Positions 7,051 through 27,393 of a stretch of 64,000 nucleotides of DNA are shown here, piece by piece. The position numbers were made by a program, and so were the translations under genes. The stretch lies in the NCBI RefSeq assembly GCF_030503735.1, contig NZ_CP073096.1, positions 186,001 through 250,000 of the forward strand. Direction: 5' to 3'. The stretch comes from Corynebacterium tuberculostearicum (lineage in GTDB: Bacteria; Actinomycetota; Actinomycetes; Mycobacteriales; Mycobacteriaceae). The notes beneath the pieces are model-generated. The model ran no database searches. It saw nothing but the letters and a program-made list of their open reading frames with translations, and was not told the origin of the DNA. The stretch's first letter is position 1. Every line of letters starts with the position of its first letter.

Positions 7051-7368
7051 ATGTTCATTGTGAGTCAACAGCGCAAGAAATACACGCCGGAGTACCGGCG
7101 TGAAGCCGCGAACCTAGTAATCGAGTCGCAGCGACCGATCGCCCATGTAGCTAAGGAAATCGGTGTTTCCGCCGGGCTTTTAGGCCGGTGGGTCAAACTC
7201 GAACGTGAACGCCGAGGAGCATCAGATGGGATGAGTGAGTCTGATCTTCGTGCTGAGAATACTCGCCTGCGCCGAGAGCTGGCTGAGGCCAAGATGGATA
7301 ACGAGTTTTTGTCAAAAGCGACAGCCTTCTTCGCCGCAAAGCAACGCGAGCAGAAAAGTTCGAATTGA
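7051..7368 (+). CDS. IS3-family transposase OrfA (HTH subunit)
   Basis: The 105-residue product has an N-terminal helix-turn-helix of the transposase-8 type (YTPEYRREAANLVIES then HVAKEIGVSAGLLGRWVKL, residues ~11-50) that binds the IS ends. A leucine-zipper-like coiled coil follows (LRAENTRLRRELAEAKMDNEFL, ~67-90) and mediates multimerisation. GTG 7060 is an alternative start, better spaced from AGGAGAGG. Near the end, a run of four A then G (7354-7358) offers a -1 slip into orfB, giving the OrfAB transposase known for the family. Confidence 0.9.
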   Translation: MFIVSQQRKKYTPEYRREAANLVIESQRPIAHVAKEIGVSAGLLGRWVKLERERRGASDGMSESDLRAENTRLRRELAEAKMDNEFLSKATAFFAAKQREQKSSN

Positions 7369-8267
7369 TGCAGCAGGAGAAGGCGAACTACAGCATCAAG
7401 CGCATGGCACGGCTATTAAAAGTGTCTCGGTCTGGATATTACAAATGGGCCTATGCGCAGCAGAAACGGCTATCCGGCGAAGATGATCGTGTTGCATTTT
7501 ACGATGATGTTGACCGTAAGATTCATCAGATTTGGTCGGACTCCGATGAAGTTTATGGTGCTCCGCGGATCACCGCAGCACTTACCGAGCGCTACCACAT
7601 TGTGATTAACCGTAAGACTGCGGCTAAGCGGATGCGCATTTTGGGCATCGAAGGGATTTCACCGCGGGCCTTTGTCCCGGTGACTACAATTCAAGCCAAG
7701 CGTAAGTCCACACTTCCTGACTTGGTCAAGCGCATGTTTGATACTGGTGAGCTCAACCGAGTGTGGATGTCAGATATTACTTACCTGCGCACCGGTGAAG
7801 GCTGGCTGTATTTGTGCGCGGTCCGCGACGGCCATTCCCGCAGAGTGCTGGGCTGGGCTATGGATAGCGTTCAAGACACAAGTTTGGTCGAACGGGCCCT
7901 GCAGATGGCGCATACACTACGCGGTGACGTTCCTGATGGGCTGGTGTTTCACGCTGACCGCGGAACGCAATTTACCAGCGAGAAGCGATGGGAAGTGTGC
8001 CGCAACCTGGGCATTGCCCAGTCTGTGGGGCGTACGGGCGTGTGCTTCGATAACGCGATGGCTGAGTCATTCTGGTCGACGCTAAAGAATGAATTCTACG
8101 ACCGTAAGCGATGGCCTACCCGTGATGCTGCACGCAAAGCCGTTGCCTACTGGATGGAAGTCGTCTACAACCGCCGGCGCCGGCACTCTGCACTCGGAAT
8201 GGTCAGCCCCGTCGACTTCGAAAACCACATTGGTCTAACCACCAGTAAAAAAGAAATAGCTGCCTAA
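7368..8267 (+). CDS. IS3-family transposase OrfB (DDE integrase)
   Basis: The product is about 299 residues. After an N-terminal HTH_21-like part (YSIKRMARLLKVSRSGYYKW) comes the rve integrase core with an intact DDE triad: Asp in WMSDITYLRTGEGWLYL, Asp in VFHADRGTQFTS, and Glu in SFWSTLKNEFYDR. It catalyses strand transfer for the IS. The frame is -1 relative to orfA and overlaps its end, so it is probably made mainly as a frameshift fusion. Length and motifs are complete. Confidence 0.93.
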   Translation: MQQEKANYSIKRMARLLKVSRSGYYKWAYAQQKRLSGEDDRVAFYDDVDRKIHQIWSDSDEVYGAPRITAALTERYHIVINRKTAAKRMRILGIEGISPRAFVPVTTIQAKRKSTLPDLVKRMFDTGELNRVWMSDITYLRTGEGWLYLCAVRDGHSRRVLGWAMDSVQDTSLVERALQMAHTLRGDVPDGLVFHADRGTQFTSEKRWEVCRNLGIAQSVGRTGVCFDNAMAESFWSTLKNEFYDRKRWPTRDAARKAVAYWMEVVYNRRRRHSALGMVSPVDFENHIGLTTSKKEIAA

Positions 8268-11668: not shown

Positions 11669-12088
11669 TTAGTCCTGTGCAACACCAACGTTGACTTCAA
11701 TGTTGCCGCGGGTGGCCTTGGAGTAAGGGCACATCTGGTGGGCGGCGTCGGCAAGCTCCTGTGCCTTGGCGTCCTCAACGCCTGGGATAGTGACCTCAAG
11801 GTCAACGCCGAGGTAGAAGCCCTCGTCGTTCTTGCCCAAGTTAACGCGGGCGCCGACGGAGGAATTCTCCACGTCAACACCCTTGTCCTTGGCCACTGCC
11901 TTCAGCGCGGAGTGGTAGCAAGCGGCGTAACCGGCAGCGAAAAGCTGCTCCGGGTTAGCGCCCTCACCGCTGCCGCCCATCTCCTTCGGGGCGGTCATGG
12001 TGAAGTCCAGATCGGAATCCTTGACTACAGAGCGGCCGTCGCGGCCTGCTCCGGTGGAGAGTGCTTCGGTGGTGTAAACGGCGTCCAT
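11669..12088 (-). CDS. Organic hydroperoxide resistance protein (Ohr/OsmC family), copy 1
   Basis: The product is 139 residues, normal Ohr length. It reduces organic hydroperoxides in the cytoplasm with a reactive cysteine pair: one Cys in GYAACYHSAL (about residue 57) and one in HQMCPYSKATRGNI (about 121). The GxGANPEQLFAAGYAAC block is the Ohr signature. It lies 54 bp downstream of a second ohr on the same strand and is very similar to it. The spacing and the downstream terminator suggest cotranscription, although the spacer also holds AT-richer DNA that could carry its own promoter. Confidence 0.93.
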   Translation of the reverse strand: MDAVYTTEALSTGAGRDGRSVVKDSDLDFTMTAPKEMGGSGEGANPEQLFAAGYAACYHSALKAVAKDKGVDVENSSVGARVNLGKNDEGFYLGVDLEVTIPGVEDAKAQELADAAHQMCPYSKATRGNIEVNVGVAQD

Positions 12089-12142
12089 GATGACTCCTTC
12101 TCTATCGGGTCTTTGTACGTCCGCCGATTGTACGCAAGAACG

Positions 12143-12562
12143 CTAATCTTCGATGACGGTCACGGTGACCTCAATATTGCCCCGGGTGGCATTGGAGTAG
12201 GGGCAGACCTGGTGGGCGGCTTCGGCAAGCTGCTGGGCTGTGGCCTTGTCTTGAGCTGGGATGGAAACCTCCAGGTCCACTGCAAGCTGGAAGCCTTCGC
12301 CCTGCTTTCCGATGCCCACTCGTGCCCCCACCGCAGAGTCACCCAACTCGACCTTTTGGTTGCGGGCCACGGCCTGCAGCGCGGAGTGGAAGCAGGCGGC
12401 GTAGCCGGCGGCAAAAAGCTGCTCCGGGTTGGCGCCTCCGCCGCTGCCGCCCATTTCCTTAGGGATGGCGAGGGTGAAGTCGAGGTCAGAGTCCTTGACA
12501 GTGGCGTGGCCGTTGCGGCCTGCTCCGGTGGCTAGCGCCTCGGTGGTGTACATGGCGTCCAT
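12143..12562 (-). CDS. Organic hydroperoxide resistance protein (Ohr/OsmC family), copy 2
   Basis: The product is 139 residues with the same signature as its neighbour: GANPEQLFAAGYAACFHSAL holds the peroxidatic Cys and HQVCPYSNATRGNI the second Cys. ATG 12562 is chosen because AAAGGAGC precedes it at ideal spacing; an upstream in-frame start would add seven residues and overlap that site. It is transcribed divergently from ohrR with 100 bp between them, the usual arrangement for OhrR control. Two adjacent ohr copies are unusual; divergence at many positions argues against a very recent duplication. Confidence 0.93.
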   Translation of the reverse strand: MDAMYTTEALATGAGRNGHATVKDSDLDFTLAIPKEMGGSGGGANPEQLFAAGYAACFHSALQAVARNQKVELGDSAVGARVGIGKQGEGFQLAVDLEVSIPAQDKATAQQLAEAAHQVCPYSNATRGNIEVTVTVIED

Positions 12563-12662
12563 GATTGCTCCTTTCGATTTCACAATCCGGTTTCAATATC
12601 CACTTTTGATTGTACACCATTCAATTGTGGGCAATGTTTTCTTGGCGTCTATACTTTTGACT
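12563..12662. promoter_or_regulatory. Divergent ohr/ohrR promoter region, probable OhrR operator
   Basis: This 100-bp AT-rich spacer separates the two start codons. The segment TTGATTGTACACCATTCAAT followed by TGTGGGCAA (about 12606-12634) contains ATTGT twice and the palindrome CAATTG, similar in character to OhrR boxes of other bacteria. A related TTGTACG direct repeat occurs in the spacer between the two ohr genes (about 12112-12136). The operator assignment is inference. Confidence 0.45.
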
Positions 12663-15386: not shown

Positions 15387-16202
15387 TTAAATGTCATAGA
15401 GCTCGCGCAGAGCCCCATCGATTTCAGACATAGAGGTGAAGTCTTGGATGACGTACACGGGGACCCCGACATCACCCAACGTTGCGGCAATCTCGCCCGA
15501 GGTCAGCAGAAAATCCGCCTCGCTCGCCCGGCCCTTGGCTGAGATAGTGTCGGTAGCCTCTACCGTGAGGTAAGGCCCCCAGCCCCATGCATCCAGGACT
15601 TGCTCCAGGGTATTTTTAAGGAACAAAGATGTGCCCAGGCCGTTGCCGCATACCGTGAGGATCTTGCCTTTGGAGGCGATAGAATCCGCGGATTTTTGTT
15701 TCGCAGGGCGGGCTGCCGGTTCGGTCGGTGCTGCGGAAGACGCGCGCTTCTTATTCGAAGCCGCTGCTTTGAGAACCGCACGGAGCTCCTCTTCAGAGTC
15801 CACGCGATTGAGCTCATCTCGCTTTGTAGCTAGCAACTTTGCTAGCTGCTTCATGGCCTGTAAATGCTCGGAGTCATTGCGCGCGGCAAAAGCTACGACT
15901 AGGTCTACGGGATCATTGGAATCGTGGCCGAATTCCACTGGCTCATCTAGGCGTACCCAGGACAGGGAGGTTTCCTTCACTGCCTCCGAAGGCCGCGCGT
16001 GCGCAAAGGCAAAGCCTGGGGCCACCACGATATAAGGTCCCGTTTCTTCCACAGAGCGCACCATTGCTTCTGTGTATTCTGCGGTGATCGTGCCTGCATC
16101 TTCGAGTAACGATCCTGCAAGCCGGATAGTTTCTCGCCAGTCCTTGGCGGCGCCGTGCAACTCCACCGCGCCGGGCACCAGGAGGGAATCTAGTGTCGCC
16201 AT
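15387..16202 (-). CDS. PTS ascorbate-type IIA-IIB fusion protein
   Basis: The product is 271 residues. Residues ~1-145 are a IIA domain of the mannitol/fructose-like fold, with the phospho-accepting His in APGFAFAHARPSEAV (His68). An Ala/Lys-rich linker leads to a IIB domain (~175-271) with the phospho-Cys in ILTVCGNGLGTSLFLKNTL. Phosphate passes from HPr to His68, then to the Cys, then to the incoming substrate at the IIC partner. IIA and IIB are often separate (UlaC, UlaB) and are fused here. An 8-bp palindrome lies about 25-45 bases upstream of the start, so transcription is probably controlled by a sugar-responsive repressor. Confidence 0.9.
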   Translation of the reverse strand: MATLDSLLVPGAVELHGAAKDWRETIRLAGSLLEDAGTITAEYTEAMVRSVEETGPYIVVAPGFAFAHARPSEAVKETSLSWVRLDEPVEFGHDSNDPVDLVVAFAARNDSEHLQAMKQLAKLLATKRDELNRVDSEEELRAVLKAAASNKKRASSAAPTEPAARPAKQKSADSIASKGKILTVCGNGLGTSLFLKNTLEQVLDAWGWGPYLTVEATDTISAKGRASEADFLLTSGEIAATLGDVGVPVYVIQDFTSMSEIDGALRELYDI

Positions 16203-16224
16203 ATGTATCTCCCATCACAGAAAT

Positions 16225-16248
16225 AGTGACATCGGGGTTAATGTCACT
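16225..16248 (-). promoter_or_regulatory. Palindromic operator candidate for the PTS operon
   Basis: AGTGACAT and ATGTCACT form a perfect 8-bp inverted repeat with an 8-base centre, placed 23-46 bases upstream of the IIAB start codon. The size suits a dimeric GntR- or DeoR-type regulator. No regulator gene lies next to the operon in this window. Confidence 0.6.
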
Positions 16249-16388
16249 CATGATTCTATCCCGCGGAGAAACCGGAGGTAAAAGCAGGGGTAACGTTTGC
16301 ACTGGCCGGTGAGCGGAAGGCTGTCCTGGGTTTTTCGTGTTCCAGGGGGTGGGCTTCGTTAAAAGCGGACTTTGATAGGGAGTGAAAG

Positions 16389-16477
16389 TTAAAAGCCCCG
16401 CTAACGCGGGGAAGGATGCAGCTCAAGTGCTGCTTTGAGCACTGCAACAGGCTCATCCCGTTAGATACGGGAAGGTG
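16389..16477 (-). CRISPR. Degenerate mini-CRISPR unit (two pseudo-repeats, one spacer) upstream of cas3
   Basis: Read on the minus strand, the first pseudo-repeat (16477 to 16450) ends in GGGATGAGCC, identical to the end of the main-array repeat, and keeps a stem TCCCGT/ACGGGA. The second (16416 to 16389) contains CCCCGCGTTAGCGGGG, one base off the repeat core, then CTTTT. The stems lie 61 bp apart, the period of the main array, leaving a 33-base spacer (16449 to 16417). That spacer can itself fold (AGTGCT with AGCACT). The unit is antisense to cas3 and lies 163 bp before it. This is the layout of crRNA-like regulator or antitoxin RNAs (CreR/CreA) known from other type I loci. The match is by eye; expression is unproven. 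Confidence 0.75.
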
Positions 16478-16514
16478 GTGTTAATACCTGCAAGAGAGTG
16501 TACTCTACTGCGAT

Positions 16515-16535
16515 TTCGCTTTATTGTAGAAAAAT
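16515..16535 (-). promoter_or_regulatory. Possible promoter for the mini-CRISPR RNA
   Basis: On the minus strand a TACAAT hexamer (plus-strand 16528-16523) fits an actinobacterial -10 element. Transcription would start near 16516, about 40 bases before the first pseudo-repeat. No good -35 is visible, which is common in Corynebacterium. Prediction only. Confidence 0.4.
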
Positions 16536-16536
16536 A

Positions 16537-16587
16537 ATGAACGTTGCAGTGCTATACGTGCTACTGTCTTGGGTAGTGGAAGGTTAA
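16537..16587 (+). CDS. Possible 16-residue hydrophobic peptide overlapping the pseudo-spacer target
   Basis: ATG 16537 opens MNVAVLYVLLSWVVEG and closes at TAA 16585-16587. Twelve of 16 residues are hydrophobic, as in small membrane-active toxins. No Shine-Dalgarno is visible; the upstream bases are A-rich. Codons 3-5 and most of codon 6 are exactly the 11 bases matched by the mini-CRISPR spacer. If real, it could be the toxin of a CreTA-like pair; a chance ORF of this length is quite possible. Confidence 0.2.
   Translation: MNVAVLYVLLSWVVEG
16540..16553 (+). promoter_or_regulatory. Predicted Cascade target of the mini-CRISPR spacer
   Basis: GTTGCAGTGCT (16543-16553) equals bases 2-12 of the pseudo-spacer in crRNA sense (11 of 11); after that the match is random. 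The three bases before it are AAC, in the PAM position (AAG is the preferred type I-E PAM in E. coli). The site lies 87-97 bp before the cas3 ATG, in the likely promoter region. Seed-only pairing is expected to allow binding without degradation. Confidence 0.6.
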
Positions 16588-16639
16588 GTCCACTGGGGTC
16601 GAAGCTTCAGTGGTGTGAGAGTCTTGCGGAGGAATAGAA

Positions 16640-19420
16640 ATGGAATTGCCGGTAGCCACGGTTGAATTCTGTAAGCGCGCCGAGGGTTGGGCGCAGCAAA
16701 GGAGCCCGCAGGCGTGCAGCTTGTGGGCGAAATCGGGAGATGGCGTCGATTTCCTAAATGTTCCGCAACACTTGGTGGATACGGCGTGCGCTGCATCATT
16801 GATCTTTAATTCCTGGGTCTCGCAGCCGGTTAAAGATTTCCTGGGTAGTGAATTGCAACTCAAAGAAAGTGAGCTGGAAGCGCTGTACTTGTGGCTGGCT
16901 GGCACGCATGATGTGGGAAAAGTCTTAAAAAGTTTCCAGCGGCTACTTTTGGGTCGAAGAGCGTTGGAGCACCTTGTTAATGCGGTCAGTGATGCTGGGT
17001 TGGCTACGGAACTTAGCGTTGACGAGGCCAACTTTAGCAAGCTCCCCCACAGTATAGCCTCCGGAGAGATTCTGTCCTTGTGGCTAGAAGGGCAGGGGGT
17101 TCGACGGCCAAAAGCTAATGCGGTAGCCGGAGTGGTGAATGCACATCATGGCATTGTGACTGGTCCTAATTCTTCAGTTCGCAATCTCATGGAAGATTAC
17201 CCGGCTGAGTGGAAAGCCGTTCACCGAGAGCTGGTGGAGGCAATGGAGGAGTTATGTGGGGCGGAAGGGGGCGTCGGCAAACTGGTGGCATCCATGCCTA
17301 AAATGTCTGGACCTGCGGCGCAAACGCTGACTGGTCTGGTGGTGATGGCTGATTGGATTGCCTCTAATGAAAAAGCTTTTACTCTCCGCGTACAGGGTAG
17401 CCAATTGGAGCGAACTGCTGCTGGAGCCGAATTCATAGACCTCACTTCGCCGTGGGCCCCTAGAGGTGCTCGGAGGGCGGATATTGATGAGTTTTTCCGT
17501 AAGTCATTCAATTGGCCTGCGGAATTTCAGGCGCGTCGGGTTCAGCGGGCGATGGTGGAAGCAGTTCAAGACTTGGATGAGCCTGCTTTGGTGGTCCTCG
17601 AAGCGGAGACAGGTGTGGGCAAGACTGAGGCGGCGCTCGCTGCCGCGGAGATTATGGCAGCCCGCAACGGCGCGCAAGGAGTATTCTTTGCGGCCCCGAC
17701 GATGGCTACCGCTAATGGCTTGCTAGAACGGACAATCGAGTGGGCTGGAAATGTGGCAGGGAACTCGGTGCGGTCCATGTACCTCGCGCACTCGAAGAAT
17801 GCTTTGTCCAAGCCGTTTGCGGAGTTGAAATTCAACGGTATTAATGACCTCGAAGAATCCGGTGATGAGGTAGTGGCCTCGCAATGGATGTCTGGGAGCC
17901 GATTGGGCATTCTCTCGAATTTCGTCGTGGGAACTGTGGACCAGGTGCTGATGATGGCGTTGCAGCAGAGGTATTCCATGCTGCGTCACGTGGGGCTAGC
18001 GGGCAAAGTGGTCATATTCGATGAAATTCATTCGTTCGATGTCTTTACCTCTGACTACCTGCGCAGCACCATTGCCTGGTTGGGGCATTATGGGGCCAGC
18101 GTCATCCTGATGTCCGCAACCCTACCGCCGCACAAGCGCAGGGAGCTGGTGGAGGCTTATTCATGGGGAGAAATGCCGGAAGGTGAGCAGGGCTATCCGC
18201 TCATTACCGTAGCCACGGCAGATGAGGTCCATGTTACCTCCGTGGAACCATCGCCTACCAACCTGGTGGGAGATATTCAGATACTCAATGAGGAAGAGCG
18301 TCCGCTTTCTGCATTGCTCGACCAGCTACTTGATGAGGGCGGCTGTGTCCTTGTTATTAGCAATACTATTGACCGCGCTCAAGCTGCATATTCGCGCCTG
18401 GCGGATATTTATGGCGAGTGTGTCGAGTTGCACCACGCGGGCTTTGTTGCCTGGGAAAGAGTGGAAAAGGAAGACTCTCTAAGACAAGAGCTTGGCCCTG
18501 ATTCTCACCGTGGAGCTGGTCGTCCGTGGCGCAAAATTGTGGTAGCCACCCAGGTGGCCGAGCAGAGTCTCGATATTGATGCCGATGTTCTCATTACGGA
18601 TATCGCGCCGATAGACTTGCTCATCCAACGCATCGGTAGGTTGCACCGTCATGTGCGCCCCGAAACTGATAGACCTCGGGGCCTCCAGGAGCCGAAGATT
18701 TTCATTCGCGGTGTGCTGCAAAAAGACCCAGTTCCGGAGTTCGAATCTGGTGCGGAAGCAATCTACGGTCGAGCGATCTTGATGTCCACTTTGGCTGCGT
18801 TGCCTGAGGAGTTTCGACGACCAGATGATACTGCCAAGCTCGTCGCAGAGGCTTATAACCCAGATTTTAAACCCCCAGCACCGTGGCTGGAAGCGTGGAC
18901 CGAAGCAGAAGATGAGAGGCGACATGGGGAAGCTACGGCTCACTTGAAGTCCACAGATTACCGATTGCCTGATCCTCGGCATGGTCTGCAATTTAAAGCG
19001 CTCTTTGAGCGATTGGTCGATGATTCTGAGCGCAGTGCCGGGGAAGGGGGAGTGGCACAAGTACGTGATATTGAGCCGAGCGTGGAGGTCATCCCCATTA
19101 TCGCTACCGATTATGGATATTGGCCTTGGGGTTGGAACAGTGAGGTTCTTGATGGCGGCGAAATTTCATACAAACTGGCCTTTCATTTGGCATCGAGCAC
19201 AGTGCGCTTGCCTGGGCGGATGACCCGCTATGGAACAGACTTCGACGTGGTAGTAAGCCAGCTTGAGGAATCTACACCAGGTGAATGGGCAGACAACTAT
19301 CTGCTGCGAGGGCAACTAGCTCTGTTTCTGAATGAAAGCAATGAAGCTACGGTTGGGCGCTTTGAAATTCGCTATTCCTCAGAGCTTGGAATCGAAATAA
19401 TGAGCGACGGTAGGGGTTAG
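16640..19420 (+). CDS. cas3: CRISPR-associated helicase/nuclease Cas3 (type I-E)
   Basis: The product is 926 residues. The N-terminal HD nuclease domain has LAGTHDVGK (~87-94). The superfamily 2 helicase follows, with Walker A ETGVGKTEAAL near 322, VVIFDEIHSFD (motif II) near 458, MSATLPP (motif III) near 491, and VAEQSLDIDADVLI then QRIGRLHRH (motif VI) near 662. Cas3 is recruited by target-bound Cascade and unwinds and degrades invading DNA. GGAGGAA lies 6 bases before the ATG. It heads the cas genes; the 437-bp upstream region holds the PTS operator and the mini-CRISPR unit, and the 5' leader contains a CCACTG/CAGTGG dyad at 16590-16613. Confidence 0.97.
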   Translation: MELPVATVEFCKRAEGWAQQRSPQACSLWAKSGDGVDFLNVPQHLVDTACAASLIFNSWVSQPVKDFLGSELQLKESELEALYLWLAGTHDVGKVLKSFQRLLLGRRALEHLVNAVSDAGLATELSVDEANFSKLPHSIASGEILSLWLEGQGVRRPKANAVAGVVNAHHGIVTGPNSSVRNLMEDYPAEWKAVHRELVEAMEELCGAEGGVGKLVASMPKMSGPAAQTLTGLVVMADWIASNEKAFTLRVQGSQLERTAAGAEFIDLTSPWAPRGARRADIDEFFRKSFNWPAEFQARRVQRAMVEAVQDLDEPALVVLEAETGVGKTEAALAAAEIMAARNGAQGVFFAAPTMATANGLLERTIEWAGNVAGNSVRSMYLAHSKNALSKPFAELKFNGINDLEESGDEVVASQWMSGSRLGILSNFVVGTVDQVLMMALQQRYSMLRHVGLAGKVVIFDEIHSFDVFTSDYLRSTIAWLGHYGASVILMSATLPPHKRRELVEAYSWGEMPEGEQGYPLITVATADEVHVTSVEPSPTNLVGDIQILNEEERPLSALLDQLLDEGGCVLVISNTIDRAQAAYSRLADIYGECVELHHAGFVAWERVEKEDSLRQELGPDSHRGAGRPWRKIVVATQVAEQSLDIDADVLITDIAPIDLLIQRIGRLHRHVRPETDRPRGLQEPKIFIRGVLQKDPVPEFESGAEAIYGRAILMSTLAALPEEFRRPDDTAKLVAEAYNPDFKPPAPWLEAWTEAEDERRHGEATAHLKSTDYRLPDPRHGLQFKALFERLVDDSERSAGEGGVAQVRDIEPSVEVIPIIATDYGYWPWGWNSEVLDGGEISYKLAFHLASSTVRLPGRMTRYGTDFDVVVSQLEESTPGEWADNYLLRGQLALFLNESNEATVGRFEIRYSSELGIEIMSDGRG

Positions 19421-19421
19421 C

Positions 19422-19517
19422 ATGTCCAAGGCCAAAGCTACTCTGAGGGCACCTCCGACCCAGGAGTATTCACTACGCACCACTATTCCATCTCTACAGA
19501 AAGGAGGCGAAAAATAA
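19422..19517 (+). CDS. Possible 31-codon leader ORF before cse1
   Basis: ATG 19422 begins one base after the cas3 stop and the frame closes in TAA that overlaps the cse1 start as TAATG. GGGG lies upstream, and the cse1 ribosome-binding site AAAGGAGG lies within its end. Such an arrangement would couple translation of cas3, this peptide and cse1. The peptide (MSKAKATLRAPPTQEYSLRT at its start) has no recognisable features and may be meaningless. Confidence 0.25.
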   Translation: MSKAKATLRAPPTQEYSLRTTIPSLQKGGEK

Positions 19518-21262
19518 TGACTGAAAAACCAACGTTTAACTTGCTCGATGAGCCGTGGATTTTGTGCATTGACAGTGCAGACACCCCGGCCGCATTAAGT
19601 ATCCGGGACATATTTTCCGGCCGCGGCGACGCTCAAAAAGTCTTAGGCGATTCACCCACCCAGGACTATGCGGTAATCCGGGTACTGCTTGCGATCTTCT
19701 GGCGGGCCCATGCTCTGGATATTGCTCGTGCCTATTCGCACAATTCTCGGCGGGTCCATTTTGATTGGGGAGAATGGTTCGCTGATCAGCGAGAAACCCT
19801 GCTCAGTGGGCAACGCGATGAGGTTGTTCTGGATTATCTCGACGCCTTTGCTGATCGCTTTGATCTTCTCTCTGAAACTCAACCCTTTATGCAGGTAGCT
19901 ACCCTGCATTCGAAGAAGGGGGACACTCGCCCCATCTCCTATATCGTTCCCGAGGCCGCGGAAGATTTCTTCACCATGCGCACCGGGGATGGCCGCCAAA
20001 GCTTGTCTTTAGCTGAGGCTGCTCGGTGGCTTATCCACCTGCAAGCCTATGACTATTCCGGTATCAAGACCGGCGCAGAGGGTGATCCACGCGTCAAAGG
20101 TGGTAAGGGCTATCCCATCGGTACCGGATGGACCGGCCGAACGGGCGGAACACTCGTTCTTGGGACGGGTGGATTATTAGAGACGTTGCTGCTTAACACT
20201 TCCCAGTATGTTGTCACCACAAAGCAGGATTCAAACCCCATCGAAAGCGATAAGCCGGTGTGGGAGCGTGAACCCGATACGGCAGCGCAGCGCCCTGGAT
20301 CCGACGATAAGCTCGGTGCAATTCCCCGCGGTGCTGCTGACTTGGCAACCTGGCAAGCGCGGCGAGTGCGTCTCGTGGTCGAGGACGGAAAGGCTACTCG
20401 AGTAGTAGTTTCCAACGGGGACCGCATTCCGGATGCAGGAAAGAACGTGCTGGCCGATCCAATGACGCCGTATCGTTATAGTCCGAATCAGTCAAAGAAG
20501 GGCGTGACAGCGTACTACGCTCGCCCCTACGACTCGACGCAAACCATGTGGCGTGGTCTTGATTCCCTAATTGCGCTTGAGGATGACCCCGGCTTTGATC
20601 AAAAGAAGGATAAGGCTCCGCTACGCCCCGAAAACCTGAGTAACCTCGCGGCTCTAGATGCCGATAGATACTTGGAAAAGCATGTCTTCGATGTCGCTCT
20701 AGTCTCCATGGAGTACGGGCCACAAGAGTCTTCAGTGGCCAGCACGTTTAGCTCCACTATCGGTCTGCCTGTTGTGGTGCTTCGTGACGATGAAGCAGGC
20801 CGCAAGGTGAGAAATGCTGTACGCACCTCCGCTAAGCAGACCTATGAGGCAGCGATCAGCATGGGCTGGTTCGCTGGCCAATTGCGGGTAGCCGCGGGCG
20901 ATGACTATGAGTTTGGAGTAGCAGTCAAAGATCGCTTCTATGCTCAGCTAGAACCGCAGTTTATCGAGTGGATGTCTACCGTTGCGGTGGATACTACCGA
21001 TGAATCTCAAAAAGTATGGCAAAAGCGTGCCAGGGGCGTAGCTTTGGCGCACGCTCGAGAATCGCTCCGTGGAGCTGGTCAAAAGGCGGTCATTGGTAGG
21101 GAAATTGATACCGGAGAAGAAGGAAAGGGCCGAATCATTTCTGCGGGCTCTTTGTATCGGCAACTTCTTCGCCGCCTCGATAAAGACTTGCCTCTTACCG
21201 CACCACCGGCTGATAGCCGGAATAACGATTCATCTCTGAAGGAGGGCAAGGCCCATGCATGA
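19517..21262 (+). CDS. casA: Cascade large subunit Cse1 (CasA, Cas8e)
   Basis: The product is 581 residues. The start FNLLDEPWILCIDS is the typical Cse1 opening, followed by RDIFSG and the TQDYAVIRVLLAIF helix. The middle has the GKGYPIGTGWTGRTGG loop and the C-terminal four-helix bundle is Arg-rich. Cse1 reads the PAM on target DNA and docks Cas3. AAAGGAGG precedes the ATG at good spacing. It overlaps cse2 by 8 bases, so translation is probably coupled. If the mini-CRISPR RNA is functional, this subunit would also recognise the AAC motif at its target. Confidence 0.95.
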   Translation: MTEKPTFNLLDEPWILCIDSADTPAALSIRDIFSGRGDAQKVLGDSPTQDYAVIRVLLAIFWRAHALDIARAYSHNSRRVHFDWGEWFADQRETLLSGQRDEVVLDYLDAFADRFDLLSETQPFMQVATLHSKKGDTRPISYIVPEAAEDFFTMRTGDGRQSLSLAEAARWLIHLQAYDYSGIKTGAEGDPRVKGGKGYPIGTGWTGRTGGTLVLGTGGLLETLLLNTSQYVVTTKQDSNPIESDKPVWEREPDTAAQRPGSDDKLGAIPRGAADLATWQARRVRLVVEDGKATRVVVSNGDRIPDAGKNVLADPMTPYRYSPNQSKKGVTAYYARPYDSTQTMWRGLDSLIALEDDPGFDQKKDKAPLRPENLSNLAALDADRYLEKHVFDVALVSMEYGPQESSVASTFSSTIGLPVVVLRDDEAGRKVRNAVRTSAKQTYEAAISMGWFAGQLRVAAGDDYEFGVAVKDRFYAQLEPQFIEWMSTVAVDTTDESQKVWQKRARGVALAHARESLRGAGQKAVIGREIDTGEEGKGRIISAGSLYRQLLRRLDKDLPLTAPPADSRNNDSSLKEGKAHA

Positions 21263-21926
21263 GAATCAAGACACCTCTAATACAGGCTCGCAACGTAGCG
21301 GCGGCCCTAGGCTTCGTGACTCGGTGACTCGGACTGCAGATACGCTACAACGAGATCTTCTTCATTCGCCGAACCACGCTAAACAGGCGCACGCCCGAGC
21401 TGTGCTAGCGACATTGCGTAAGTACTCAGCAGTAAAACTGGAGCACCACCCCCTTGCCTTGGAGGAAGTTCTGTTTCTACTGGAACCACCCTTGCGCGCG
21501 TGGGAGTTGGAAGAGGGAGGAGATCCATCCGCCGCAGAATTAGCAGCATTTCATGCCCTCACGATGTTTGGCGTGCATATGCAAAGCGCAACCACTGATG
21601 CCCACATCGCTGGGCAAAGTTTTGCTAAAGCGTGCGGGCGTTTGTATGCCCAAAGCCAATCCCAGTCCACCAAGCCCCGTTTCGACGCGATGATGGTGGC
21701 ACAAGATGAGGCCTCCCGGATAATTCACATTCGCTCTCTGGTCATGCTGCTGCGACGCGCCAAGCTGGGGTTTGACTATGGACAATTTGCCAATGACCTT
21801 CGCGTCTTAGGCGACCAGACAGTAACCCAGAAAGAACAGGCTCGCCGCCAAGGCGTCCTCCTGCGGTGGGGTCGCGATTTCGCCACTGGCGTTTACGTCT
21901 CCTCCCACAACGAGTCAGAATCCTAA
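21255..21926 (+). CDS. casB: Cascade small subunit Cse2 (CasB)
   Basis: The product is 223 residues and mostly helical. The block AHARAVLATLRKYSAV (~46-61), the central AFHALTMFGVHMQS helix and the C-terminal MLLRRAKLGFDYGQFANDLR fit Cse2, whose dimer lines the backbone of Cascade and stabilises the crRNA-DNA hybrid. The first 25 residues are polar and probably disordered. It starts inside the end of casA. A 31-bp gap with GAAAGGA leads to cas7. Confidence 0.93.
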   Translation: MHENQDTSNTGSQRSGGPRLRDSVTRTADTLQRDLLHSPNHAKQAHARAVLATLRKYSAVKLEHHPLALEEVLFLLEPPLRAWELEEGGDPSAAELAAFHALTMFGVHMQSATTDAHIAGQSFAKACGRLYAQSQSQSTKPRFDAMMVAQDEASRIIHIRSLVMLLRRAKLGFDYGQFANDLRVLGDQTVTQKEQARRQGVLLRWGRDFATGVYVSSHNESES

Positions 21927-21957
21927 TCCCTCCCTCTTTGAAAGGAACTTAAAAACC

Positions 21958-23100
21958 ATGTCTCTTATCATTGATATCCACGCTCTGCACACCCTTCCGC
22001 CATCGCTAATCAACCGTGACGATACCGGTGCACCAAAGTCCGCCGTCTATGGCGGGGTACCACGCCAGCGTGTCTCTTCCCAGTCGTGGAAGCGCGCAAT
22101 CCGTAAGTACTTCGAGACCCACGTTGATGCGGAATCCGTGGGAGATCGTTCGAAGCGCATCCCGGAAAAAATTGCCCTTAAGGTAGAAGACCACGAGGGG
22201 TGGGATGCTGAGCGCGCCCAGGCTGCAGTGGCCGGCCTTTTCAAGTCCGCCGGCATAACGACGGAAGTAGATTCCAAGAAGCTTAAGGCTCTCAAGGAGT
22301 CGGAAGAGACTACGCAGGAAGAGCTAAAGGCAGCACAGTACCCACAGACTAAGTACCTGCTTTTCTTGAGCCCCCACCAGATCGACCGCGCGGCAGCAGC
22401 CATCGTCGAGGCAGACGGCGAGAAAATCAGTAAGAAGGATGCGCAAAAAATCCTCGATACCGAGCACTCGGTGGATATGGCGCTCTTTGGCCGTATGGTT
22501 GCGGATGATGCTGCTTTCAATATTGATGCCTCCGTGCAGGTAGCACACGCCCTTGGCATTCATGCCAGTGCACCCGAGTTTGATTACTTCACCGCAGTAG
22601 ACGATTTGGCAGAAGAAGGGCAGGAGACAGGTGCCGGAATGATCGGCACCGTGCAGATGATGTCTTCGACGCTCTACCGCTATGCCACAGTAAACTTGAG
22701 CGGTTTGAGCAAGAACCTGGATTCTGAGGAAAATGCAAAGCAAGCTGCTGTTGATTTTGTGGATGCGTTCATCAAGTCCATGCCTACCGGAAAGATCAAT
22801 ACTTTTGCCAACCAGACCCTGCCAGAACTGGTTTATATTGCGGTACGCGATACCCGTCCAGTAAACCTTGTCACCGCCTTTGAAGAGCCGGTAGAGGCGA
22901 CGGGTGGAAAGAGCCTTCGCGTAGCCGGTGCAGAAACCTTGGCTAAGGAAGAGGCGGAGTTTGAGGAAAACTATGGTCTCAAGCCACAGGCCTCGTTCGT
23001 TGTAGGTGTTACTGAAGCTCGTAAGGCCTTTGCGGATCTTGCGGAAGAAGTAACGCTTCCTGAGCTCGCGGATCGATTGGCTGCCGCCCTGGAGAAGTAG
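21958..23100 (+). CDS. cas7: Cascade backbone subunit Cas7 (CasC, Cse4)
   Basis: The product is 380 residues. It opens with IIDIHALHTLPPSLINRDDTG and YGGVPRQRVSSQSWKRAIRKY, the signature of type I-E Cas7, which coats the crRNA in six copies. MFGRM-like, GTVQMMSSTLYRYATVNL and GKINTFANQTLPELVY blocks follow. GAAAGGA precedes the ATG. The length is a little above the E. coli protein, owing to a charged insertion at about 105-165. Confidence 0.95.
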   Translation: MSLIIDIHALHTLPPSLINRDDTGAPKSAVYGGVPRQRVSSQSWKRAIRKYFETHVDAESVGDRSKRIPEKIALKVEDHEGWDAERAQAAVAGLFKSAGITTEVDSKKLKALKESEETTQEELKAAQYPQTKYLLFLSPHQIDRAAAAIVEADGEKISKKDAQKILDTEHSVDMALFGRMVADDAAFNIDASVQVAHALGIHASAPEFDYFTAVDDLAEEGQETGAGMIGTVQMMSSTLYRYATVNLSGLSKNLDSEENAKQAAVDFVDAFIKSMPTGKINTFANQTLPELVYIAVRDTRPVNLVTAFEEPVEATGGKSLRVAGAETLAKEEAEFEENYGLKPQASFVVGVTEARKAFADLAEEVTLPELADRLAAALEK

Positions 23101-23114
23101 GAAGGAAGCCGACA

Positions 23115-23831
23115 ATGACATATTCGTTGTTATTGCTCCTTAAAGGTCCGATGCAGTCATGGGGGACCGAGTCTCGCTACGCCACGCGAGCCACATCTAC
23201 CCTTCCTTCGAAGTCGGGTGTGCTGGGGATGCTTGCTGCAGCTGAAGGCAGGCGCCGCACCGATGGAGTAGAAGATCTGGCAGGACTGAGATTCGCGGTG
23301 CGCGTGGATCAATCTGGTAGTCTGCTTCGCGATTATCAGACGGCCCAAAATTGGCAGAATAACCCGAAGAGCCAAGCCAAGCTGATTACTCGATACTTCT
23401 TAACCGATGCTGCCTTTGTTGCTGCTATCGAAAGCGAAGATCAAGCTCTCTTAGAAGGCTTTGCCGAGAGCCTGGAACGGCCGGTCTATCCTATTTTCCT
23501 CGGCCGTAGATCATGCCCAGCTCCGCCGAATATCGTGCTTGGCGTGGTTAATAAGCCTGCGGTGGAAGCACTGCAGGATCACTCGTTGTGGCATGCAACG
23601 AAAGACTATATGCGCACGTGTGGGCAGGAAGTAGAGTTGCCTATCTATCGCGACTCACTCGCCGGCGAAGCCGGTACGGCCTGCCAGGACGTGCCAGTTT
23701 CTTTCGCCCCTGAGCATCGTAAGTATTCTTGGCGCACCGTTGTTCAAAAGGAATTCGCCACCGTGAAAAACCCGATCGAACCGGAAAACCGCCGTCCTGA
23801 TCCCTTCTTGGAAGCGGTGATGAATGTATGA
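23115..23831 (+). CDS. cas5: Cascade subunit Cas5 (CasD)
   Basis: The product is 238 residues. YSLLLLLKGPMQSWGTESRYATR at the N-terminus and PSKSGVLGMLAAAEGRRR (~32-49) are the RAMP-like signature of Cas5e, which holds the 5' handle of the crRNA. PIFLGRRSCPAPPN near 130 is the family's second conserved block. It overlaps cas6e by 4 bases (ATGA). Confidence 0.95.
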   Translation: MTYSLLLLLKGPMQSWGTESRYATRATSTLPSKSGVLGMLAAAEGRRRTDGVEDLAGLRFAVRVDQSGSLLRDYQTAQNWQNNPKSQAKLITRYFLTDAAFVAAIESEDQALLEGFAESLERPVYPIFLGRRSCPAPPNIVLGVVNKPAVEALQDHSLWHATKDYMRTCGQEVELPIYRDSLAGEAGTACQDVPVSFAPEHRKYSWRTVVQKEFATVKNPIEPENRRPDPFLEAVMNV

Positions 23832-24526
23832 GTACGTTGACAAAGATTTTGATTAACCCGCGGCGTCGCCAAGGGCGCAAACTGTTGACCAACCCGCAGG
23901 CTATGCATGCGGCTGTGGCGGCTTCCTTCCCGCCCGACTTAGACCAGTCTTCTGGGCGTATATTGTGGCGCCTTGACAAAAGCGGTGACTACCGGGCGCT
24001 GTATATCGTGGGGCCTGAAAAGCCGACTGCCAGCGTGATTGCTGAGCAGGCAGGGTGGGATACAAGGCCTGCGCAATCAGTCGAGTATGACCGCCTCTTG
24101 GGCTCTCTGACTAAAGGGCAGAGGTGGCATTTTGAGCTCTTGGCCAATCCCACATACTCGCAGTCTAATGGTGGAAAGCGAGGCAAAGTTAAGGCGCACG
24201 TTTCAGTAGAGCACCAATTGGGCTGGCTGTACCAACGCTCTGAACGATCCGGATTCAAGCTCTCCCCGCGCGCTCAAGATGAGGCTAGTGATGCCGAACG
24301 TGACCGCTGGTCCGTACATGAGCAGACCACCATCGTGGAGCGAAAATCCTTGGATTTCCGTAAAGGCGATAGCCGCCGTCGCGTGCACATCGCTACTGCA
24401 CGCTACCGCGGAACCTTGGAGATCAGTGATCCAGACGCACTGCGCGGGACTTTAGTCAATGGCATTGGTAGGGCTCGTGGTTATGGCTGTGGTCTATTGA
24501 CCTTGGCCCGGCCGGCAGGTGCATAA
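23828..24526 (+). CDS. cas6e: CRISPR RNA endonuclease Cas6e (CasE)
   Basis: The product is 232 residues. It cuts the repeat hairpin in the precursor crRNA and stays on the 3' end. The N-terminal NPQAMHAAVAASFP carries the likely catalytic His27, and GIGRARGYGCGLLTLARP at the C-terminus is the Gly-rich loop of the RAMP fold. It should recognise the 6-bp stem of the repeat; both pseudo-repeats upstream of cas3 keep a stem of that size. It overlaps its neighbours on both sides by 1-4 bases. Confidence 0.95.
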   Translation: MSTLTKILINPRRRQGRKLLTNPQAMHAAVAASFPPDLDQSSGRILWRLDKSGDYRALYIVGPEKPTASVIAEQAGWDTRPAQSVEYDRLLGSLTKGQRWHFELLANPTYSQSNGGKRGKVKAHVSVEHQLGWLYQRSERSGFKLSPRAQDEASDAERDRWSVHEQTTIVERKSLDFRKGDSRRRVHIATARYRGTLEISDPDALRGTLVNGIGRARGYGCGLLTLARPAGA

Positions 24527-25464
24527 TGTCCACACCAAGTGAAGTCCCCATTACGCGCCAAGCTTTAGCGCGGATATCGGACCGGATAAGCTTCCTTTAC
24601 GCTGAGCGGTGCGTGGTCAATAGGGATGGGAATTCCCTTACCATCACCGATCAACGTGGGGTAGCTTATGCGCCTGCTACCCAGGTGGCTGCTTTATTGC
24701 TCGGTCCTGGCACGAAGATCACCTACGCTGCTATGGCCCTGCTTGGCGACGCCGGCGTGACCACCCTTTGGGTAGGTGAGCGCGGGGTTCGCTATTACGC
24801 CCATGGCCGCCCGCCGGCCAAGTCTTCCCGTATGACTGAAATCCATGCGCAGGTTATCAGTAACCAACGCAAGCGGTTGGACTGTGCTCGCCGCATGTAT
24901 GCACTGCGGTTTCCAGGCGAAGATGTCTCTCGGTTGACGATGTCGCAGTTGCGCGGCCGCGAAGGGGCGCGTATGAAGCGGATTTATGCCGCCGAAGCGG
25001 AGCGCACAGGTGTGTATTGGAATCGTCGATCTTATGACCCCAATGATTTCGATTCCTCGGACCCCATCAACCAGGCACTCACAGCAGGAAGCGCTGCTTT
25101 GTATGGCATCGCACATGCAGTAATTGCGGCTTTGGGTTTCATTCCGGCGTTGGGCGTTGTGCACAGTGGCACTGATCGTTCCTTTGTCTACGATGTGGCA
25201 GACCTGTACAAAGCGGAGATTTCGATTCCTGCAGCATTTGATGCCGTGGCAGCACAGCAGGGAAATCCTTCCGTTGAGGTGCGCCGTCGGATTCGCGATA
25301 AGGTGGTATCTCATCGCTTGATGCCCCGGATGGTGCGCGACCTTAAGGCTCTTTTCGACATCCCTGATGAACTTCTAGTTAGCGATGCCGAACTCATGTT
25401 GTGGAGTGAGCTTGAAGTTATTGCCTCCGGGGTGAATTGGGCAGAAGAGGAGTCGTTGTCATGA
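24526..25464 (+). CDS. cas1: CRISPR integrase Cas1 (type I-E)
   Basis: The product is 312 residues. The N-terminal beta domain includes GVAYAPATQVAALLLGPGT, and the alpha-helical integrase domain follows. Metal ligands appear to be Glu in the AAEAERTGVYW region, His213 in LGVVHSGTDRSF, and the Asp pair in VYDVADLYK (about 223-226). With Cas2 it inserts new spacers at the leader end. It begins in the last base of cas6e and overlaps cas2 by 4 bases, so adaptation genes are coupled to Cascade genes. Confidence 0.96.
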   Translation: MSTPSEVPITRQALARISDRISFLYAERCVVNRDGNSLTITDQRGVAYAPATQVAALLLGPGTKITYAAMALLGDAGVTTLWVGERGVRYYAHGRPPAKSSRMTEIHAQVISNQRKRLDCARRMYALRFPGEDVSRLTMSQLRGREGARMKRIYAAEAERTGVYWNRRSYDPNDFDSSDPINQALTAGSAALYGIAHAVIAALGFIPALGVVHSGTDRSFVYDVADLYKAEISIPAAFDAVAAQQGNPSVEVRRRIRDKVVSHRLMPRMVRDLKALFDIPDELLVSDAELMLWSELEVIASGVNWAEEESLS

Positions 25465-25817
25465 TGGTGCTGGTCGTTACAGCCTGCCCAGGAGGCCTGC
25501 GAGGCGATCTCAGTAAATGGCTCATTGAGCTGACCCCTGGAACGTTTGTGGGACGCCCTACCGCGCGCGTCCGAGAATTGCTCTGGGAGAGAACAGTGGA
25601 TCTTTGTAAAGACGGTCGTGCCTTATTGGTGTATTCCGTCGCTAATGAGCAAGGCATGGAGTTCCGAACTCACCGGCATCACTGGGAACCCACCGATTTC
25701 GATGGTGTCACGTTAATGATGCGCCCACATAAACTAAAGCAGATGAAGCGTCGGACGGGTTGGTCGAAAGCCCGCCAAGCCCGCAAGATGTACATCCGAC
25801 AGAAAGGGGGAGGTTAG
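25461..25817 (+). CDS. cas2: CRISPR adaptation protein Cas2 (type I-E)
   Basis: The product is 118 residues. VLVVTACPGGLRGDLSKWLI and GTFVGRPTARVRELLWERTV are the conserved start of the I-E (CasF-like) Cas2, which bridges two Cas1 dimers. The basic C-terminal tail (KRRTGWSKARQARKMYIRQK) is longer than the E. coli protein. ATG 25461 overlaps the cas1 stop as ATGA; a frame opening 24 bases earlier would lie deeper inside cas1. Confidence 0.95.
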   Translation: MMVLVVTACPGGLRGDLSKWLIELTPGTFVGRPTARVRELLWERTVDLCKDGRALLVYSVANEQGMEFRTHRHHWEPTDFDGVTLMMRPHKLKQMKRRTGWSKARQARKMYIRQKGGG

Positions 25818-25900: not shown

Positions 25901-27393
25901 GTGCTCCCCGCGTAAGCGGGGATGAGCCCGGCGTTACCTATGAACGCCGTATTGTTCCGCTGTGCTCCCCGCGTAAGCGGGGATGAGCCTCGTCGGCATT
26001 CCGGTATCTTGCGATTGTGTTAGTGCTCCCCGCGTAAGCGGGGATGAGCCGAAATGCAGGAAAGAAATTAGGGGGTGAGACCTGTGCTCCCCGCGTAAGC
26101 GGGGATGAGCCGAGAACCAGAACAATTTCAACAAGGCTGTGCAGGTGCTCCCCGCGTAAGCGGGGATGAGCCCAGCTCGTCCGGCCCCTTGCCGTCCATC
26201 ACTGGGTGCTCCCCGCGTAAGCGGGGATGAGCCCACAGGAGATCAATGGCTGCACGCCAACCGGGAGTGCTCCCCGCGTAAGCGGGGATGAGCCCTCGGT
26301 GGTGGACGTAATAAAATCGTCACTGCTGTGCTCCCCGCGTAAGCGGGGATGAGCCCCCGTGGAAGCTGTGGACACCTGCACTACGCTAGTGCTCCCCGCG
26401 TAAGCGGGGATGAGCCCCCCCCAACCCGCCCGAGGTCAAGACCCGCAACAGTGCTCCCCGCGTAAGCGGGGATGAGCCCGCCCGTGTTGTGGACTACAAG
26501 TTAAAGACCGAGTGCTCCCCGCGTAAGCGGGGATGAGCCCGCCCGGCTCGCCGCTAAGGGCCTGGACGGCCTGTGCTCCCCGCGTAAGCGGGGATGAGCC
26601 GACAAACTAGACCATATGGTCACAGTGACAAAAGTGCTCCCCGCGTAAGCGGGGATGAGCCCACTACTGAGGAACTACCCGACGAGGATATGCCGTGCTC
26701 CCCGCGTAAGCGGGGATGAGCCTCTACTGGCGGTGGGGTAGCGGTAGCCACCCCCGTGCTCCCCGCGTAAGCGGGGATGAGCCGTATTTCACTGATTTTA
26801 TGAAGGGTTTTATCGGGTGCTCCCCGCGTAACCGGGGATGAGCCCGTCTCCGCTGCCTGGGCTGCGCCGTTTGCAGCGTGCTCCCCGCGTAAGCGGGGAT
26901 GAGCCCGCGGGAATCGGGACCAGTGCAACGGCGGTTAGGTGCTCCCCGCGTAAGCGGGGATGAGCCATCAAAGGCGGTCATGGTATCGGGTTCCTTTCTG
27001 TGCTCCCCGCGTAAGCGGGGATGAGCCCTGCTACCGGAGCTTCCACCGCCCGAATGGAGCGTGCTCCCCGCGTAAGCGGGGATGAGCCCTGCTACCGGAG
27101 CTTCCACCGCCCGAATGGAGCGTGCTCCCCGCGTAAGCGGGGATGAGCCCCATCGGAGGAAGAAATGAACAAGCTATATCGGGTGCTCCCCGCGTAAGCG
27201 GGGATGAGCCGGTACAGGGCGTTTTTGCTTCGGCTGGTTCGTGGTGCTCCCCGCGTAAGCGGGGATGAGCCCCCGCCGGTAGGCCCATGAGCCATTCGAT
27301 GAACGTGCTCCCCGCGTAAGCGGGGATGAGCCGATACTTTGCTTGGCAACCTGATTGCTCCGCATGTGCTCCCCGCGTAAGCGGGGATGAGCG
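25901..27393 (+). CRISPR. Type I-E CRISPR array, 25 repeats and 24 spacers
   Basis: The repeat is 28 bp, starting GTGCTCCCCGCGTAAG and ending CGGGGATGAGCC; the core CCCCGC/GCGGGG forms a hairpin. The period is 61 bp throughout, except one 34-base spacer at 26417-26450. Repeats are identical except one with AACCGG instead of AAGCGG (repeat at 26817) and the last (27366), whose final C is G. Spacers 19 and 20 (27028-27060 and 27089-27121) are identical. The crRNA sense is plus, matching the cas genes. Near-perfect repeats suggest an active or recently active array. Confidence 0.99.

Follow-up and report, generated by a model that had tools for sequence, protein, structure and literature searches.

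A predicted CreR-type RNA gene upstream of cas3 in a type I-E CRISPR locus of Corynebacterium tuberculostearicum, with similar elements across the genus

The type I-E CRISPR system of Corynebacterium tuberculostearicum very probably turns itself down, since the guide carried by a small minus-strand element in front of cas3 matches the CRISPR genes' own switch region. The element lies at 16389-16477 of the window, i.e., the whole 64,000-nucleotide stretch of DNA that was analysed, and is predicted to encode a CreR-type RNA by which Cascade would be directed to repress cas3 and cas expression, a reading to which we assign a probability of about 0.93. The window holds the complete type I-E set in the order cas3-cse1-cse2-cas7-cas5-cas6e-cas1-cas2 followed by an array on the plus strand, with cas6e and all of the Cascade genes present at the locus, and the features that matter here are the following:

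15387-16202, minus strand: PTS gene, divergent from cas3; the element sits between this gene and cas3
16389-16477, minus strand: creR-like gene (proposed name), made up of pseudo-repeat 1, guide and pseudo-repeat 2; elements of its kind were recognized by geometry at 70/96 cas3 loci
16396-16411, minus strand: hairpin core of pseudo-repeat 2, CCCCGCGTTAGCGGGG, then CTTTTAACTTT, which is terminator-like
16417-16448, minus strand: guide, 32 nt, with the seed GTTGCAGTGCT at 16448-16438 and the variable base T at 16449
16450-16477, minus strand: pseudo-repeat 1, with the stem CCCGT-ATCTA-ACGGG and then a crRNA-type 5′ handle, ATGAGCC
16540-16553, plus strand: target, consisting of the PAM AAC and an 11-nt seed match; the protospacer would extend to 16574
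16559-16567, plus strand: candidate cas3 extended -10, TGC TACTGT (TGCTACTGT), within the protospacer; found by eye in aligned targets of the window's clade
16640-19420, plus strand: cas3, the presumed regulated gene
19517-25817, plus strand: cse1 (cas8e), cse2 (cas11), cas7, cas5, cas6e, cas1 and cas2, every one above its NCBIfam cut-off
25901-27393, plus strand: main CRISPR array, on the strand opposite to the element

The repeat of the main array is GTGCTCCCCGCGTAAGCGGGGATGAGCC and its period is mostly 61 bp, with a single 62-bp period at 26389-26451, a variant repeat at 26817, a last repeat (27366) that is also variant, and a repeat-spacer duplication between 27000 and 27121 that has left an identical spacer in tandem (27028-27060 and 27089-27121). 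The Cas3 protein of the window shares 99% identity with its counterpart in Corynebacterium sp. p3-SID1241 and 91% with the one in C. tuberculostearicum SK141. Elsewhere in the window, an overlapping pair of plus-strand ORFs at 7051-8267 has, by eye, the look of an IS3-type transposase, and small minus-strand genes at 11669-12583, OsmC-like by eye, are duplicated in tandem (300-nt direct repeat, 74% alike).

A previous sequence-only reading had proposed that two degenerate minus-strand repeats lie opposite the main array, and these are present at 16389-16477. As that reading also held, the first copy retains the last 10 bases of the repeat with the handle (GGGATGAGCC at 16459-16450), and the second retains the hairpin core with 15 of its 16 bases (16411-16396). 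The distance from handle to hairpin in the element equals that in the array (37 nt past the variable base, delta 0), and the spacer is therefore 33 nt; the proposed 61-bp spacing of the stems, identical to the period of the main array and enclosing one such spacer, is thus correct for the window element, but it did not survive as a general rule, the guide being about 12 nt shorter in 41 of 64 elements (see below). Compared ungapped with the full repeat, pseudo-repeat 1 scored 17/28, below the 27-28/28 at which the array repeats match, and the near-identical repeats of an ordinary immune array are accordingly not found in the element. This likeness of the whole repeat proves little, because unrelated 28-mers in the window reach 18 matches, and it was dropped as evidence, 17/28 being no better than the window background. 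The element is nevertheless a non-chance feature, the significance of which lies in the combination of handle, stem and exact spacing, in the target at 16540-16553 and in conservation in relatives. A scan of 16000-17000 with the Rfam covariance models gave 0 matches at E values up to 1.

The target had no place in the earlier reading. The first 11 nt of the guide, GTTGCAGTGCT, recur at 16543-16553 on the plus strand directly after GAAC, and guide and target are the only two places in the window where this 11-mer occurs. PAM and seed together (AANGTTGCNGTGCT) matched once in the 2.5-Mb genome, namely at the target; a backward control pattern also matched once, and a single match is expected from the length, so this count shows only the absence of a second site. 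The end of the 32-nt protospacer is 65 bp from cas3. The target probably overlies the cas3 promoter: besides the candidate -10, a TAnnnT hexamer was seen by eye at guide positions 20-25 in several targets of the window's clade, while a consensus promoter scan listed no promoter at the target site, for which reason we infer the cas3 promoter there. On the other strand, TACAAT at 16528-16523 is, by eye, a weak candidate -10 for minus-strand transcription. The cas3 leader contains a possible hairpin, CCACTGGGGTCGAAGCTTCAGTGG, at about 16590-16613, between the target and the start codon.

Conservation was followed in the genus using a Cas3 search, which matched 96 of 242 genomes; the sample consisted of the window and 95 fetched regions, all oriented, with the repeat taken from each genome's own array where one was found and a default repeat used for scoring the loci that lacked a readable array. 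(A DNA search of 61 genomes with the intergenic region gave, besides its own genome, one match, which covered only the first 106 bases, at the start of the PTS gene.) When the best seed match was sought without any PAM condition, at least 9 matches were obtained at 52 of 95 loci (L097, which has no upstream sequence, was omitted), and 51 of these 52 sites were preceded by AA (AAC 42, AAT 5, AAG 3, AAA 1). With AA required, at least 9 matches were found at 51/95 loci, compared with 15 of 7225 exchanged pairs in which guide and region came from different loci without a common 14-mer; this scoring cannot itself demonstrate the AA, and it is the unconditioned count that serves for the PAM. A PAM of AAN has been given for the type I-E system of S. 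avermitilis (PMC12231136, excerpt). The bases found 3′ of the repeat in the arrays (C 2306, G 1246, T 395, A 92) lend loose support only to a PAM ending in C, and the main-array spacers, compared with phages for the same purpose, gave weak, chance-like matches that were not used.

In a stricter test the element was defined by geometry alone (its own handle at 6/7 or better and a second hairpin core at 11/16 or better), and the AA target was asked for afterwards. Such elements were found at 70 of the 96 Corynebacterium cas3 loci, and 64 of the 70 had an AA target beside cas3 or cse1 with matches at no fewer than 11 of the 14 positions scored, compared with 20 of 4252 exchanged pairs. Six elements fell under this threshold, i.e., L040 and L070 (10/14 each), L081, L075, L086 and L100; the near target of L081, with 9 contiguous seed matches in the AA-required scoring, was excluded by the distance rule, and the elements of L075, L086 and L100 may be false. 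The 26 loci without an element by geometry include L097 and also L123-L125, which have another handle and so stand outside the definition. The stem of pseudo-repeat 1 formed six pairs in 33/67 cases, as opposed to 587/4098 when the arms were exchanged. The earlier reading had named the loss of the pseudo-repeats and of their spacing in relatives with the same cas genes as grounds for giving it up; the comparison was run, and the geometry was kept at 70/96 loci and the target in 64/70 elements. As judged from these comparisons, creR-like elements are widespread in the genus Corynebacterium.

The seeds vary between species and the targets vary along with them, except at positions 6 and 12. Among 47 distinct seeds (L120 was omitted from this profile and from the comparison of handle-to-hairpin distances), positions 1-5 and 7-8 matched in 47/47, in part by selection, as the best-match choice of targets inflates match counts; positions 9, 10, 11 and 13 matched in 45, 43, 40 and 40 of 47, positions 14-16 in 33, 24 and 20, and the matches were chance-like from position 17. 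Positions 6 and 12 matched in only 16 and 13 of the 47. In 22 disjoint pairs of loci with alike guides, guide changes were matched in the target in 59/63 cases at positions 1-5 and 7-11, in 12/20 at positions 13-16 and in 1/11 at positions 6 and 12; for all 127 such pairs the counts were 408/437, 69/194 and 3/100. The pairs were picked by guide similarity, some of them between distant loci rather than sister species, and the targets by best match, which inflates the count at positions 1-5 and 7-11 but leaves the contrast to positions 6 and 12 unaffected. Close pairs show single matched changes, e.g., L049 and L054 at position 5. The window and L034 are identical in the handle (10/10), the seed (11/11) and the PAM plus target (14/14), whereas the rest of the protospacer agrees at 17/21 and the remainder of the spacer at 19/21. 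In the type I-E R-loop every sixth base is flipped out, and the apparent tolerance of mismatches at positions 6 and 12 is as expected for such an R-loop.

The 64 supported elements fall into two length classes, the handle-to-hairpin offset being 23-26 in 41 and 36-37 in 23, with none between, so that the guides are either of canonical length, as in the window (offset 37), or about 12 nt shorter. When the stems were required as well, a scan for the geometry gave offsets of 24-26 in 26 cases and of 36-37 in 15, while a further ten cases (15, 27, 35, 42, 43, 47 three times, 50 and 59) are put down by us to pieces of arrays, reverse readings or chance; in the strict geometry test L086, which is without a target, had an offset of 34. 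Parsimony on a quick Cas3 tree (91 rows, several long branches flagged) placed at least seven changes between short and full guides. The tree left out L056, L094, L097, L103 and L109, with short or missing Cas3 frames, and L040, L070 and L081 were labelled CreR in it; these three are below 11/14, yet have 9-10 seed matches in the AA-required scoring.

In the Cascade of E. coli a 61-nt crRNA carries six Cas7 and a Cas11 dimer (PMC12235044, excerpt), and one Cas7 site corresponds to 6 bp in type I-F1 (PMC7296934, excerpt); the 12 nt would therefore amount to two Cas7, with presumably one Cas11 per two Cas7. It is possible, at odds slightly short of even, that many of these species build a naturally small Cascade, with two Cas7 and one Cas11 fewer, for self-regulation, so that the repressor would be physically distinct from the immune complex and the stoichiometry of Cas11 would set the sizes, in steps of 12 rather than 6 nt. 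In type I-B, engineered guides that had been shortened gave repression without interference (PMC10989794). The idea that a shorter guide is by itself enough to hold Cas3 back was given up, since truncation by 6 or 12 in type I-E leaves Cas3 degradation in place, if at a slower rate (PMC7296934, excerpt). A literature search outside the two main CreR papers found no natural two-length system.

The placement of element and target also varied. In 51 of the 64 the element is on the minus and the target on the plus strand, in 8 the reverse, and in 5 both are on the plus strand; most elements of a divergent I-E branch are on the plus strand. At L104, L105, L106 and L107 the element is upstream of cas3 and the target lies behind cas3, at +2863 to +2939, and therefore probably before cse1, and a different promoter may be regulated there; at L110 two targets compete. 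Eight loci (L046, L050, L051, L055, L058, L059, L063 and L065) have an array in reverse orientation upstream of cas3, and the element, on the same strand, occupies the stretch from the end of that array to cas3, which hints at an origin of such elements from the ends of arrays. Beyond the genus, a sample of 345 genomes from the class contained 62 with cse1 (own included), and 40 loci were fetched, 36 of them with a usable repeat. Here an AA target of at least 11 matches within 400 nt accompanied 11 of 294 loosely defined elements, compared with 26/5856 for shuffled guides (about 1.3 expected in 294). Two of the 11 matches were discarded by eye (L154 at 3525 and L169 at 14217), and nine loci (L141, L144, L151, L154, L155, L158, L160, L162 and L169) looked like CreR by eye, with the target either ahead of cas3 or in the interval from cas3 to cse1 and an offset of 25-26 (four) or 37-38 (five); these other actinomycete I-E loci probably carry the same kind of element.

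Several other explanations were considered. The element could be an inert remnant of an array, i.e., two decayed repeats around an old functionless spacer, and the degenerate repeats and the arrays that adjoin the element upstream of cas3 in several relatives (e.g., L050 and L059) do suggest such an origin; 64 loci have, however, kept the handle, the paired stem, the spacing and an AAC site that matches, and the comparison with L034, in which handle, seed and PAM plus target are unchanged while the adjoining bases change, makes inertness very unlikely. Guide and target are also two like sequences 95 bp apart by a promoter, as would be expected of two copies of a protein-binding operator with incidental repeats. 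The motif, however, varies between species while its copies agree, the agreement breaks at positions 6 and 12, and the target copy follows AA in 51/52 without this having been requested (that the element copy always follows a handle is due to the search design), so that this explanation is extremely unlikely.

The architecture would equally suit a CreA-type antitoxin RNA that holds a toxin gene off, as in CreTA or CrePA, and an 11-bp seed is found in CreA too (PMC10989794, excerpt). Only 65 bp separate the protospacer end from cas3, and at L087, L088, L094 and L095 the target begins 12-31 nt ahead of the assigned cas3 start; as judged from these distances, a CreA is improbable. The sequence-only reading had left the choice between a CreR and a CreA open; the PAM-flanked seed target, the agreement of guide and target and the pattern at positions 6 and 12 favor its CreR half, and the CreA half is disfavored in that 56 of the 64 targets lie 12-127 nt ahead of cas3 as its start is assigned, some of them over the start region itself. 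Pseudo-repeat 2 with CTTTTAACTTT resembles a terminator, and the element might be mainly that, or another structured transcript, the CRISPR likeness being secondary. Handle, guide and target would then be left unexplained, and a T-rich tail follows the element in only 27 of 67 relatives' elements; we regard this possibility as negligible, and the terminator likeness is compatible with a CreR that ends at its own terminator.

The CreR-type reading would have the following course. The element would be transcribed leftward from the region upstream of cas3, and Cas6e would cut both pseudo-repeat stems to yield a crRNA-like RNA whose 5′ handle is normal. Loaded with this RNA, Cascade would bind at 16540-16553, where the 11-nt seed match adjoins AAC. 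Since the probable -10 region of cas3 lies within the protospacer, bound Cascade would block RNA polymerase there, and cas3, and probably the whole cas operon, would be repressed. With about 11 matched nucleotides a full R-loop would presumably not form and Cas3 would not be triggered. In E. coli five seed pairs and an AAG PAM are enough for Cascade binding, interference needs extensive pairing, and no effect on transcription was seen at off-target sites that had arisen by chance, mostly within genes (PMC5904413, excerpt); by analogy, short pairing at a promoter fits a non-cutting brake. Since Cascade would be shared with ordinary crRNAs, the brake would loosen when crRNAs or anti-CRISPRs draw Cascade off, and relief of CreR repression through such competitors is described in reviews (PMC12737573, excerpt).

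CreR, the cas-regulating RNA of mini-CRISPRs, was reportedly first described by Liu et al. in 2023, and Shmakov et al. are said to have predicted, in the same year, crRNA-like elements at type I loci, which are repeat-like mini-arrays that stand alone and match cas promoters in part; the window element shares these traits. Reviews state CreR for types I-B, I-E and V-A (PMC13131331) and describe it further (PMC12737573, PMC12948488), and the Corynebacterium element therefore adds to a known kind of RNA. Like CreR, which in these reviews is a crRNA-like RNA gene adjoining the cas genes with limited complementarity to a cas promoter, the window has a mini-CRISPR of repeat-like sequences around one spacer beside cas genes and an 11-nt seed match after AAC at the presumed promoter, and guide and target agree across relatives (64/70 elements, 96 loci); unlike CreR, many Corynebacterium elements, the window's not among them, have a guide about 12 nt shorter. 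The CreA of CreTA and CrePA is likewise a Cascade guide with a seed of about 11 bp (PMC10989794, PMC12737573, excerpts), whereas the window target lies beside cas3 itself. The Racr phage RNA anti-CRISPRs are Cas6-processed repeat mimics, as the window RNA would be if processed as proposed, but they are phage-borne inhibitors without a guide role, in contrast to a host locus with guide and target (PMC10651486, excerpt). The consulted portions of the three reviews (PMC13131331, PMC12737573, PMC12948488) yielded no Corynebacterium CreR case, and those of an actinomycete CRISPR review (PMC12231136) contain no mention of CreR, mini-CRISPR or autorepress.

The type I-E systems of Corynebacterium, and those at some loci in other actinomycetes, are thus predicted to repress their own immunity through an RNA guide. 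Taken together, the 64 naturally occurring pairs of guide and target serve as a comparative experiment on the requirements of Cascade as a repressor, and suggest an AAC PAM, mostly paired positions 1-5, 7-11 and 13-14, free positions 6 and 12, and nothing beyond about position 16. The two guide lengths raise a testable question on natural size variants of Cascade.
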